64,000 nt of DNA from Synechococcus sp. BO 8801 (GTDB taxonomy: Bacteria; Cyanobacteriota; Cyanobacteriia; PCC-6307; Cyanobiaceae), in the NCBI RefSeq assembly GCF_002252675.1, contig NZ_NQKY01000009.1, positions 62,001-126,000 on the forward strand, read 5' to 3'. This document shows positions 7,824 through 11,690 of this stretch, piece after piece. Below the pieces are notes generated by a model, which was given only the letters and a program-made list of their open reading frames with translations, searched no databases and was not told the DNA's origin. The position numbers and the translations under genes are program-made. Each line of letters begins with the position of its first letter. Position 1 is the first letter of the stretch.

Positions 7824-8510
7824 TCAGCCCGCCGGGCGAAGAATCCGCAGCATCGCGTTGCCGCCGCGCTGAAATTCGTAGGGCACCGCTTCGATCGCCA
7901 CCGTGAAACCCTCCGCGCGCAGGGCTGCCGCACTCTCCTCCAGGTGGGGCGACACTTCACCGCCCAGGGTGAGCAGCGGAAACACCCGCACCTCCCGCGC
8001 CACGCGGACCAGCTCCAGCAGCGAGGCCCGATGGAAAGCGGCATCGAGCTGCAGGCTGTACAGAAACAGCAGATGGGAGCAGAGGGCCAGCTCGAAGCTG
8101 GCGTCGGCGAAGGGCAGGGAGGGCAGGGCGGCTTCCACATAGCGCCCCTGGGCCACACCGGCCGGATAGTCGTCCAGGAAGGTGCCCATGGCCTGCATGC
8201 GTCGTCGGCCGAGTTCCTCGGGCGTGGGGATGGCCTCCCAGACGAAGTCGCTGTGGTTCTGCCGGATCTGTTCGATCACCTGGTCGTAGGTGGCGGCGAT
8301 GCGGGAGCCGATCTCCTCCCGGCTGAAGCGATAGATCGGATCGCAGGAGATCACCGCCGTGCCCCTGCGGCTGGCTTCGGCATTGAAGCTGGCCGGTCCA
8401 TCCCCGCAGCCCAGGATCCGGCCCGTCAGGTCGTCCGCCGAGAGGGCGAACATGGCCCCGTACTCCTCGAAGGAGCGGCCCCAGGGGACGACCTGATCCA
8501 GGGTGAACAT
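7824..8510 (-). CDS. SAM-dependent methyltransferase-like protein
   Basis: 228-residue class I methyltransferase-like protein. Motif I appears as GRILGCGDGPASFNAEA, the acidic motif II as ISCDPIYRF, and the post-I region as LPFADASFELALCSHLLFLY. The GCGDG loop replaces the more common GxGxG. Substrate unknown. It is transcribed divergently from the oxygenase-like gene at 8574, with 63 bases between the start codons, and precedes DUF4336 by 56 bases on the same strand. Confidence 0.78.
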   Translation of the reverse strand: MFTLDQVVPWGRSFEEYGAMFALSADDLTGRILGCGDGPASFNAEASRRGTAVISCDPIYRFSREEIGSRIAATYDQVIEQIRQNHSDFVWEAIPTPEELGRRRMQAMGTFLDDYPAGVAQGRYVEAALPSLPFADASFELALCSHLLFLYSLQLDAAFHRASLLELVRVAREVRVFPLLTLGGEVSPHLEESAAALRAEGFTVAIEAVPYEFQRGGNAMLRILRPAG

Positions 8511-8573: not shown

Positions 8574-9323
8574 ATGGCCGATGCCGCCGCCCCCGCCGCC
8601 ACCCCCGCCGCGCTGGCGATCGAGTCCCTGTTCCCGATGGCCCTGGGCCGGGTGCAGCTGGCCCCCGATCCCCTCGACACCGCCCTGCTGCTGCAGCGGG
8701 CCCTGGAGCTGCGGGAGCGGGACCCCAGCGAGGAGGGCGTGGCCTGGACCGGCGATGTGCGCGGCGCCGGTGAACTGCACCGCGACCCCCTGTTCGCCCC
8801 CCTGATCGGCCGGCTGGCGGGCCATGCCTGGAAGTATCTGGCGGCGCTGGGCTTTGATCGCCGGCGCCTGGCCCTGCAGGTGCAGCGCAGCTGGCCGGTG
8901 ATCAGCGAGGCCGGCGAGCAGGTGGGGCGCCACCACCACCCCAACGCCCACCTCAGCGCGATCTATTACCTCAATGGTGACGGCAGCGGCCGCAGCGGCT
9001 GCCTGCGCCTGTTCGCTCCCCGGCAAGTCAATGAGCTGGTGCCGGGGCTGGCGGTGGGCCAGGACGGCCCGATCGGGGCCGATGCCGCCCTCAACCGCCC
9101 CTGGCACGACGTGGCCCCCCGGGCGGGGCTGCTGCTGCTGTTCCCCTCGTCGGTGGACCATGCGGTGCTGCCCAACGGGGACCCGGAGGACACCCGCTTC
9201 TCGCTCAGCATCGACTTCGTGCTCACGGCCCCGGCGAACGCGCCCGATCCGGGCGAGTACCTCGCCCCCCACCCCGGTCGCTGGCTGGCGATCGGGGAAG
9301 ATGGGACCGAGCCGGGAGCCTGA
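8574..9323 (+). CDS. Putative 2OG-Fe(II) oxygenase (TIGR02466-like)
   Basis: 249-residue protein resembling the TIGR02466 group of 2-oxoglutarate/Fe(II) oxygenases. Visible features are a His-rich metal region GRHHHPNAHLSAIYYLNG and a downstream LLLFPSSVDHAVLPNG segment with the likely distal histidine. An arginine in TRFSLSIDF could bind the carboxylate of 2-oxoglutarate. Real substrates of this group are unknown. An in-frame ATG at 8544 would add 10 residues; 8574 fits the protein start better. It leads a compact run with a ferredoxin and DUF3326. Confidence 0.72.
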   Translation: MADAAAPAATPAALAIESLFPMALGRVQLAPDPLDTALLLQRALELRERDPSEEGVAWTGDVRGAGELHRDPLFAPLIGRLAGHAWKYLAALGFDRRRLALQVQRSWPVISEAGEQVGRHHHPNAHLSAIYYLNGDGSGRSGCLRLFAPRQVNELVPGLAVGQDGPIGADAALNRPWHDVAPRAGLLLLFPSSVDHAVLPNGDPEDTRFSLSIDFVLTAPANAPDPGEYLAPHPGRWLAIGEDGTEPGA

Positions 9324-9364
9324 GCCGCCCTGCCGACGCCGCCCCTCCCCGACCCCCATCCCCC

Positions 9365-9730
9365 GTGTCCGAGATCACCCCAGCGACGAGCCCAGCCACT
9401 GCGTCGGAGCTCCCCGTCTTCCAGATCAGCGCCAGCCTGGATGGCACCGCCTACAGCTTTCCCTGCCGCAGCGACCAGACGGTGCTGAGCGCCGCCGAGG
9501 CCGCCGGGGTGCCCCTGCCCAGCTCCTGCTGCTCGGGTGTCTGCACCACCTGCGCCGCCCTGCTGCGCAGCGGCACCGTGCACCAGCCCGATGCCATGGG
9601 CGTCAAGGCCGAGCTGCAGGCCAAGGGCTATGCCCTGCTGTGCGTCTCCTATCCCCTCGCCGACCTCGACCTGCTGGCCGGCCAGGAGGACGCCCTCTAC
9701 GAGGCCCAGTTCGGTCAGTTCCAGAAGTGA
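9365..9730 (+). CDS. [2Fe-2S] ferredoxin, FdC2-like
   Basis: 121-residue plant-type ferredoxin with an N-terminal extension and a C-terminal tail. Cluster ligands are C55, C60, C63 (SSCCSGVCTTC) and C93, the same spacing as photosynthetic ferredoxin. The segment GYALLCVSYP and the acidic tail ending in EAQFGQF resemble the FdC2 group of cyanobacteria and plastids (recalled family knowledge). The start is GTG. The stop overlaps the next gene by 4 bases (GTGA). Its electron partner is unknown; the neighbouring oxygenase-like protein is a candidate. Confidence 0.88.
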   Translation: MSEITPATSPATASELPVFQISASLDGTAYSFPCRSDQTVLSAAEAAGVPLPSSCCSGVCTTCAALLRSGTVHQPDAMGVKAELQAKGYALLCVSYPLADLDLLAGQEDALYEAQFGQFQK

Positions 9731-9936
9731 GCGCCCTGGTGCCCCTGGAGCTGTGGCTGCAGGCCTCCCCCGGTCCGCTGCTGCCCCAGCTGCGGCAGGG
9801 GCTGGCCCGGGAGGCCCGCCGCCTGGCCGGTGAGGGCGCCGAGCCCCTGCGCTGGGCGATCACGGCGGTGGATCCCCGCCGCGGCCTGCGGCTCGAGGGG
9901 ATCGTGGTGGCGCCGGTGCCGGCACCCGGCCCTTGA
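9727..9936 (+). CDS. Small conserved-looking protein, 69 residues
   Basis: Short GTG-started frame wedged between the ferredoxin and DUF3326 genes, overlapping each by 3-4 bases (GTGA upstream, TTGA downstream). That perfect fit is the main reason to accept it. The protein has a likely amphipathic helix (LLPQLRQGLAREARRLAGEG) followed by a strand-like AITAVDPRRGLRLEGIVV. There is no signal peptide or metal motif. Function not recognised. Confidence 0.7.
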   Translation: MSALVPLELWLQASPGPLLPQLRQGLAREARRLAGEGAEPLRWAITAVDPRRGLRLEGIVVAPVPAPGP

Positions 9937-10991
9937 GCGCGGCGGCCCCGCCCCTGCCCACCCTGCTGGTGATCCCCACCGGGGTGGGCTGCGCCGTGGG
10001 CGGCTTCGCCGGCGATGGGCTGCCGGCGGCCCGGCTGCTGGCGGCGGCCAGCGGCTGCCTGATCACCCACCCCAACGTGATGAACGCCGCCTCCCTCTAC
10101 TGGAGCGACCGGCGCCTGCACTACGTGGAGGGCTGGAGCCTCGACCGCTTCGCCGCCGGCGAGCTGGCCCTCGCTCCGGTGCCCTCCCAGCGGGTGGGCG
10201 TGCTGCTGGATGCGGGCATCGAAGCGGAGCTGCTGCTGCGCCACCGCCAGGTGATCGAGGCCTGCCGCGCCAGCCTGGGGCTGACGATCGGTCCGGTGCT
10301 GAGCAGCGATGGCCCCCTGGAGGTGAGCCTCTCGATCGGGCCCAGTGGCAGCAGCTGGGGCACCATCGGCCGCCCCGACGCCCTGCTGCGGGCCGGTGAG
10401 GCGCTGCTGGCGGCCGGAGCCACGGCCATCGCCGTGGTGGCCCGCTTCCCCGACGAGCCCGGCAGCGACGCCCTGGCGGCCTACCGCCACGGCACGGGGG
10501 TGGATGGCCTGGCCGGGGCGGAGGCGGTGATCAGCCACCTGCTGGTGCGCCACCTGGGGGTGCCCTGTGCCCATGCCCCCGCCCTGGCGCCGCTGCCGCC
10601 CGACCCCGCTCTGGATCCGCGGGCGGCGGCCGAGGAGCTGGGCCACACCTTCCTGCCCTGCGTGCTGGTGGGCCTCAGCCGGGCCCCCTCGCTGCGCCCC
10701 GAACCGGCCAGCGGCAACGGCCTGCTGCACGGCGCCGATCTCGGGGCGGTGGTGGCGCCGGCGGGGGCCCTGGGGGGGGAGGCGGTGCTGGCCTGCGCCG
10801 AGCGGGGCGTGCCCGTGATCGCCGTGGAGGGGAACCCCTGTCTCCTGCAGGTGGGTGGCGAGGCCCTGGGGCTGCCGGTGATCCCGGCCGCCAGCTACGC
10901 CGAAGCGGCCGGGATCGTGCTGGCCCTGCGGGAGGGCGTCGATCCGGCGGCCCTGCGGCGGCCCCTGCCGACCCTTAAAGGCCCAGGCTGA
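9933..10991 (+). CDS. DUF3326 domain protein
   Basis: 352-residue protein of DUF3326, found in cyanobacteria and some archaea, with no established function. It begins LLVIPTGVGCAVGGFAGD, has a central ATAIAVVARFPDEP segment and a C-terminal GVPVIAVEGNP region suggesting a nucleotide- or sugar-binding alpha/beta fold (inference). The start is TTG overlapping the stop of the 69-residue gene (TTGA), so it depends on translational coupling. It ends 9 bases before the convergent DUF1993 gene. Confidence 0.82.
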   Translation: MSAAAPPLPTLLVIPTGVGCAVGGFAGDGLPAARLLAAASGCLITHPNVMNAASLYWSDRRLHYVEGWSLDRFAAGELALAPVPSQRVGVLLDAGIEAELLLRHRQVIEACRASLGLTIGPVLSSDGPLEVSLSIGPSGSSWGTIGRPDALLRAGEALLAAGATAIAVVARFPDEPGSDALAAYRHGTGVDGLAGAEAVISHLLVRHLGVPCAHAPALAPLPPDPALDPRAAAEELGHTFLPCVLVGLSRAPSLRPEPASGNGLLHGADLGAVVAPAGALGGEAVLACAERGVPVIAVEGNPCLLQVGGEALGLPVIPAASYAEAAGIVLALREGVDPAALRRPLPTLKGPG

Positions 10992-11000
10992 GGGTGGGGC

Positions 11001-11507
11001 TCAGGGCTCGCCGAGGAAGTCCCGCTTGCCAAGCTCCACGCCGTTGTGGCGCAGGATGTCGTAGGCGGTGGTGACGTGGAAATAGACGTTGGGCAGCACG
11101 AAGAGCAGCAGGAAGCTTTGGCCGCTGAAGCGGAGCGTCTCGCCGCGGATCGGCAGTTCGATCGCCTTGGTTTCGGTGCCGTCGATCTGCTCGGGGGTGA
11201 AGGCCTCCAGGCTGGTGAGGGTCGTCTCGATGCGGCCGATGAGGTCGTCGAAGCCGGCTTCGTTGTCCTCCATGGATGTGCTTTCCACCCCGGCCAACCG
11301 GGCCAGGCCGCGGCGGGCGATGTCGGTGGCGATCTGCACCTGGCGCACCAGGGGGAACATGTCGGGGTAGAGGCGGGCCTGCAGCAGCACGGCGGGATCG
11401 ATCCCCTTGGCTTCGGCGTGGGCAGCCGCCTTGGCCAGGATCGCCGCCAGGTTGCGCAGGCTGCGGGCCATGGGCGGAACGGCCGCCTCGAACATCGAGA
11501 GGGTCAT
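11001..11507 (-). CDS. DUF1993 family protein
   Basis: 168-residue helical protein of the DUF1993 family, which shares the DinB-like four-helix fold. Typical features are the N-terminal [21 protein letters not shown], the [13 protein letters not shown] segment and a C-terminal [20 protein letters not shown] with a conserved histidine. Function unknown in bacteria. ATG at 11507 gives the standard family start; the upstream open frame is extra. It is divergent from the peroxiredoxin, sharing a 183-base promoter region. Confidence 0.85.
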
Positions 11508-11690
11508 GGCTGGGGCGGGGGCCGGGGGCAGGCGAAGCGGACTGTAGGCCGGTCGAGCGGGTGGCCCGGCAGCGGCGATGAGCAGAAACACTCAGCCGGT
11601 TTCCCCCCTAAGGCGGACCGATTGCGAGTTAAGCTCTCTGCGATCGCTGCTCCGGGCGGCGCGTCGTCAAGTCGTTCTTCACACATTCAC

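Follow-up and report, generated by a model that had tools for sequence, protein, structure and literature searches.

Pairing of a small LRWA protein with DUF3326 in a fed3-type gene cluster of Synechococcus sp. BO 8801

Along a 64,000-nucleotide stretch of the genome of Synechococcus sp. BO 8801 (contig NZ_NQKY01000009.1, positions 62,001 to 126,000; hereafter the window, numbered from its first letter), four genes at 8574-10991 encode, in order, an oxygenase-like protein, a plant-type ferredoxin, a protein of 69 residues and a DUF3326 protein, and the locus raises the question of which of these genes work together and which ferredoxin is among them. All four are open reading frames (ORFs) on the forward strand, and the nearest likely genes on either side (7824-8510 and 11001-11591) lie on the reverse strand, which bears out the tight four-gene cluster described in an initial annotation of the sequence. 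Our analysis suggests that the fed3-DUF3326 cluster known from other cyanobacteria probably takes this form in the window's family; the small protein and DUF3326 would constitute one soluble enzyme, and the ferredoxin (Fed3) and the oxygenase would be accessory.

The conservation of such a cluster is not new, as Cassier-Chauvat and Chauvat printed it in 2014 as cluster d, fed3-duf650-duf3326, and marked it in many cyanobacteria (PMC4284462); the table of that review gives Cyanobium gracile fed3 but no cluster letter. As in the window, a single gene separates DUF3326 from an upstream ferredoxin gene in cluster d, but the review labels this middle gene duf650, whereas here the gene usually encodes a small protein with an LRWA motif that falls below every Pfam cut-off. 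The window further differs from cluster d in that a gene for a 2-oxoglutarate (2OG) oxygenase precedes the ferredoxin gene, and the CPBP gene that is common elsewhere does not adjoin.

The small protein and DUF3326 as the core of the cluster

The DUF3326 gene (9933..10991, forward strand, TTG start) encodes 352 residues that match PF11805 over nearly their full length (E 9.7e-142, 472.4 bits against a cut-off of 25). Its start overlaps by 4 nt (TTGA, 9933..9936, forward strand) the stop of the gene for the 69-residue protein (9727..9936, forward strand, GTG start), which carries the motif PLRWA[IV]T typical of its family. Searches of Pfam and NCBIfam at E values up to 0.1 placed this protein in no family, and no cut-off in either database was reached for the small protein. 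In a sample of 146 genomes of the phylum, 64 from the window's class and 82 from outside it, DUF3326 was found in 142, and a profile of the small protein (A3; matches counted at E up to 0.01) recognised that protein in 104, including all 64 of the class. Weak A3 matches in family f24 were short ORFs of the same kind at all ten loci fetched (E 8e-9 to 4e-7 when those loci were searched; hhalign 97.6%). A second profile built with nine f24 sequences added (A6) found the small protein in 130 of the 146 genomes (64/64 of the class, 61/61 of f24 and five others), a count that is circular for genomes whose sequences entered the profile; the 16 genomes without an A6 match belong to f23 (four), f25 (five), f29 (two), f31 (three), f28 (one) and f30 (one). 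The 69-residue protein thus belongs to a genuine family that neither Pfam nor NCBIfam contains and that is new here.

Within the window's own family, sampled by 61 genomes of which 34 are well assembled, DUF3326 was present in 55 genomes and the small protein in 54, and the small gene lies directly upstream of DUF3326 in all 54 genomes that have both, with 5-212 nt between the matched parts. The sole DUF3326 gene without a small match starts at a contig end, and both proteins are found in every well-assembled genome (34/34 each). Across the class, the small gene adjoins DUF3326 in 46 of 56 loci (the window and 55 fetched loci, drawn from the 64 class genomes; the 56-locus set), and in 69 of a second set comprising the best 80 of at least 540 matches (the best-80 set).

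The two proteins also occur fused, the small domain being N-terminal to DUF3326 in one reading frame at three f23 loci (L244, L245 and L246). When 609 N-termini were searched (10 from long DUF3326 forms and 599 from other ORFs), these three took ranks 1-3 with either small-protein profile (E 1e-5, 4.5e-3 and 5.7e-3 with A3; 3.3e-7, 0.016 and 0.13 with the other), and an alignment of four f23 N-termini (the same three and L090) matched the small family in hhalign at 96.7% (E 3.4e-10). Two of the four f23 genomes that have no A6 match hold the fused form (L244 and L245). By co-occurrence, adjacency and fusion, the small protein and DUF3326 are the core of the cluster, and the proposal in the initial annotation that the 69-residue protein may be an accessory subunit is plausible for a widespread family that adjoins or is fused with DUF3326. 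Most likely, the two would assemble into one soluble enzyme; we infer their physical complex, its enzyme nature and the role of Fed3 discussed below. Long DUF3326 forms also occur at L055, L111, L088, L089 and L243; their extensions at the N-terminus were compared with the small family, and we do not count them as its relatives (hhalign 0.1-22%).

Ferredoxin and oxygenase as variable members

The ferredoxin gene (9365..9730, forward strand, GTG start) encodes a [2Fe-2S] plant-type protein of 121 aa with a Fer2 match (PF00111, E 1.6e-16). Ending 41 nt before it is the oxygenase-like ORF (8574..9323, forward strand, ATG start, 249 aa), which matches PF13759 (E 1.9e-19, 70.4 bits against a cut-off of 27) and TIGR02466 (68.7 bits against 62.5) and whose translation, judged by eye, shows His-rich HHHPNAH and DHA segments. 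Fed3 is an optional part of the cluster: a strong match occurs in 27 of the 61 family genomes, adjoining the small gene in 23 of these 27, and 10 of the 34 well-assembled genomes have no strong Fed3. In the class, the Fed3 profile matches 60 of 64 genomes at E below 1e-40, a cut that is approximate because FdC2-type matches start near the same value, and a ferredoxin lies up to 1.5 kb upstream of DUF3326 in 29/56 loci of the 56-locus set and 56/80 of the best-80 set. Outside the class, no ferredoxin was found within 1.5 kb of DUF3326 in 17 f24 and 17 other loci, and the 82 genomes yielded a single weak Fed3-profile match (4e-16). Some genomes encode Fed3 apart from DUF3326.

The oxygenase is tied to Fed3 in the window's family. 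Strong oxygenase matches (E below 1e-70) occur in 19 of the 61 genomes, all 19 of which have Fed3 (Fisher for co-occurrence 1.4e-11 over the 61 genomes and 1.1e-5 over the 34 well-assembled ones), and in 18 of these the oxygenase lies directly upstream of Fed3 and leads the run, as had been described for the window. Such a bond would be expected if Fed3 and the 2OG oxygenase were a pair of their own, in which Fed3 would maintain the reduced state of the iron centre or supply a coupled step, and were merely co-encoded with the small protein and DUF3326. We regard this as possible but somewhat doubtful: the genomes are related, so that the p-values overstate the association; two genomes (G141 and G171) match the oxygenase weakly and lack a strong Fed3; and ferredoxins stand beside DUF3326 without the oxygenase, which occurs in 0/80 loci of the best-80 set and in 2/81 other stretches, the window included. 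Moreover, enzymes of the 2OG oxygenase type generally work without an external reductant. In the reading that we prefer, the oxygenase would be a further accessory in the window's family, found together with Fed3.

A direct role of Fed3 as electron donor, which would make the cluster a single ferredoxin-dependent reductase or oxidase, is unlikely in our judgement. The ferredoxins near DUF3326 in the class (56/80 and 29/56 loci), the 4-nt overlap of the ferredoxin stop with the start of the 69-residue gene in the window (GTGA, 9727..9730, forward strand) and the frequency of several Cys columns of DUF3326 within the class all speak for it, but DUF3326 stays where no strong Fed3 was found, both in the 10 family genomes and outside the class, and it has no invariant Cys. 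Among 172 DUF3326 sequences the highest Cys column reaches 0.83 (Cys or Ser wherever there is a letter) and the highest Lys column 0.50, while 18 polar residues stand at 97% or more. The lack of an invariant Cys or Lys across the phylum speaks against a Cys-ligated Fe-S cluster of its own, or a Schiff-base enzyme, in DUF3326; together with its persistence where Fed3 was not found, the lack of an invariant Cys makes the redox pathway that was initially suggested doubtful as applied to DUF3326 itself. The conservation pattern would be compatible with acid-base or metal chemistry, and DUF3326 probably acts in this way through near-invariant Asp, Glu, His, Asn and Tyr residues rather than through its own Fe-S cluster. 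Fed3, found in the window's class, would be an accessory electron carrier for a step in that pathway or in one regulated together with it, and not an obligate part of the core. As a separate observation, every sequence not gapped at column 243 (window protein numbering) has Cys or Ser at this position, which could be a nucleophile or a mere small-residue site.

The composition of the cluster varies, with the oxygenase present in the window's family, a CPBP gene elsewhere and Fed3 sometimes apart, as might be seen if the genes were neighbours or co-transcribed housekeeping genes with no joint function. We consider this rather improbable given the fusion and the 54/54 adjacency of the small protein and DUF3326. 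The neighbourhood survey shows the cluster to be conserved beyond BO 8801, and because the arrangement recurs in many genomes it goes beyond chance. The overlaps are confined to the last three genes, and with their GTG and TTG starts, which are seen in the sequence as first reported, they agree with a translational coupling of these three; in other genomes the gap between the ferredoxin and the small gene is often wide (median 139 nt, n=66 pairs). A scan for promoters and terminators returned no promoter-like site and a single terminator-like site that falls inside the next gene, and an Rfam scan returned no RNA family. A CPBP/Rce1-like membrane protein (PF02517) is encoded directly downstream of DUF3326 in 37/56 loci of the 56-locus set and 56/80 of the best-80 set (among L032-L082, L106-L110 and L123-L202). 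It is not beside DUF3326 in the window, and a search of the BO 8801 genome with one distant query, which shows little, found no CPBP relative.

Exceptions to the pairing and the DUF3326 fold

Several observations weigh against a single enzyme formed by the small protein and DUF3326. Taken individually, only one of the three fusions does not score weakly, and all three sampled genomes of genus g70 (G052, G084 and G132) have the small protein and no DUF3326 match. In f24 the small gene is beside DUF3326 in none of the 17 loci examined (at other non-class loci it adjoins in 3/17), and in 20 of a selection of 30 f24 loci from 61 genomes, the three g70 loci among them, it lies on the same strand as glmS and just downstream of or overlapping it (-60 to 300 nt; L255-L261, L263-L268, L270, L271, L276-L278, L281 and L282), the identity of GlmS being confirmed by NCBIfam at two f24 loci. 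DUF3326 is present and the small protein not recognised in f25, f29, f30 and f31. The Cys columns 212, 243 and 280 of DUF3326 are common (about 79-95%), although not invariant, within the class; the structure model of the small protein is poor (predicted template modelling score, pTM, 0.53), and fold searches with DUF3326 gave no informative match. The g70 and glmS loci imply that the partnership is not absolute or that the small protein has a second role. The g70 genomes are without a DUF3326 match although their relatives have one.

The f24 loci also bring up a broader possibility. The small gene often follows glmS in this one family, and a gene for a glutamate racemase is often found facing DUF3326 (a racemase-like ORF in 11/17 f24 loci, confirmed as glutamate racemase for one), and for this reason the LRWA protein and DUF3326 might together make up a core enzyme, so far undescribed, of the cyanobacteria as a phylum; it would have plant relatives, serve the supply of amino sugars or cell-wall precursors and stand beside a dedicated ferredoxin. 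We offer this as speculation and think it distinctly improbable.

The AlphaFold2 model of DUF3326 (predicted local distance difference test, pLDDT, 86; pTM 0.86) was compared with known folds by two methods. The rows listed by Foldseek had a TM-score (template modelling score) of 0.12-0.14 by query length with a root-mean-square deviation of about 16 Å and were not used, and VIA-align paired the model with many folds unrelated to one another (among them LacI, lumazine synthase and allantoin racemase) at Z 8.1-9.1 over 104-148 residues, matches that would reflect at most a common alpha/beta layer. A sequence search of the PDB with DUF3326 found nothing at E up to 1, a PDB profile search gave a best E of 0.016 to a protein named mkDPBB_sym1 that was not used, and searches of Pfam and NCBIfam with the E limit raised to 10 returned DUF3326 itself and a chance DUF6437 row, with no NCBIfam model for DUF3326. 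With the small protein, the best Foldseek E was 0.3 and was not used. The literature searched gives no function for DUF3326, a plasmid collection contained no match to it, and among 14 control genomes Synechococcus elongatus was the only one with a match. A second DUF3326 paralogue of greater length lies beside Orn/Lys/Arg-decarboxylase-like pyridoxal phosphate proteins at two loci (L055:2967-9515 and L111:735-4777); these loci add methyltransferases (L111) or a B12-binding radical S-adenosylmethionine protein (L055) and resemble a small biosynthetic cluster.

Identity of the ferredoxin

The ferredoxin had initially been called FdC2-like, and FdC2/Fed2/VirK proteins are, like the window's, plant-type [2Fe-2S] ferredoxins with a C-terminal extension (PMC8408499, PMC10947542); this extension is 27 aa in Arabidopsis FdC2 (PMC10947542), and the window's tail is shorter. 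Of the 7 Fer2 matches in the BO 8801 genome, four proved to be plant-type ferredoxin genes, and a separate FdC2-type gene lies at G000:C18 (122 aa), FdC2-type proteins being recognised here by their long tail and not by a named reference sequence. After the last core Tyr, the window ferredoxin has 9 residues and the C18 protein 22.

We reconstructed a FastTree phylogeny from 115 trimmed sequences (81 ferredoxins encoded up to 2.6 kb upstream of DUF3326, the window's and others) and an IQ-TREE phylogeny from 53 of these rows. Both recovered an FdC2-type clade of eight with C18 inside and the window protein outside (support 0.968 in FastTree and 98/96 in IQ-TREE). The window ferredoxin grouped with the DUF3326-adjacent ferredoxins of L079, L082 and L070 in FastTree (0.883) and with L079 and L082 (100/96), then L070 (97/89), in IQ-TREE; the split of all DUF3326-adjacent ferredoxins from the rest received 0.472 in FastTree and 77/37 in IQ-TREE. 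In approximately unbiased (AU) tests, forcing the window's group of four to join the FdC2-type clade was not rejected (p-AU 0.551), and forcing the window ferredoxin alone was disfavoured (p-AU 0.0345). With a separate C18 gene, a short tail and this clade position, the window ferredoxin is not the FdC2 gene. It is of the Fed3 type, a name given by synteny with DUF3326 only, because the 2014 review assigns the DUF3326-adjacent ferredoxin to fed3 (PMC4284462). That it is instead a second FdC2/VirK-like protein in a cluster serving the Mg-protoporphyrin monomethyl ester cyclase of chlorophyll synthesis is very improbable, for although it is a plant-type Fer2 protein with a tail beyond that of a canonical ferredoxin, and the AU test leaves standing a tree that unites its group of four with the FdC2-type clade, it is C18 that lies within this clade, the window's tail is short, and the range of both DUF3326 and the small protein extends beyond the class, where the Fed3 found amounts to one weak match.

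By printed synteny, not sequence, the Synechocystis Fed3/Fx3 protein (slr1828) belongs to the same ferredoxin class as the window's. Reports on its essentiality conflict: fed3 is given as essential in the 2014 review (PMC4284462), whereas slr1828 was found to be fully deletable, with normal photoautotrophic growth and photomixotrophic growth impaired like that of the pfor mutant (PMC8887894).

A tempting misreading of the locus, in which the ferredoxin is FdC2 and the pathway that of the chlorophyll cyclase, is thereby corrected. DUF3326 is nearly phylum-wide in cyanobacteria (142/146 genomes) and is also annotated as a gene in potato (PMC13294368), and a likely partner can now be named for it. 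An old note on synteny becomes a testable hypothesis of two proteins, the small LRWA protein and DUF3326, to which Fed3 would be an optional addition.

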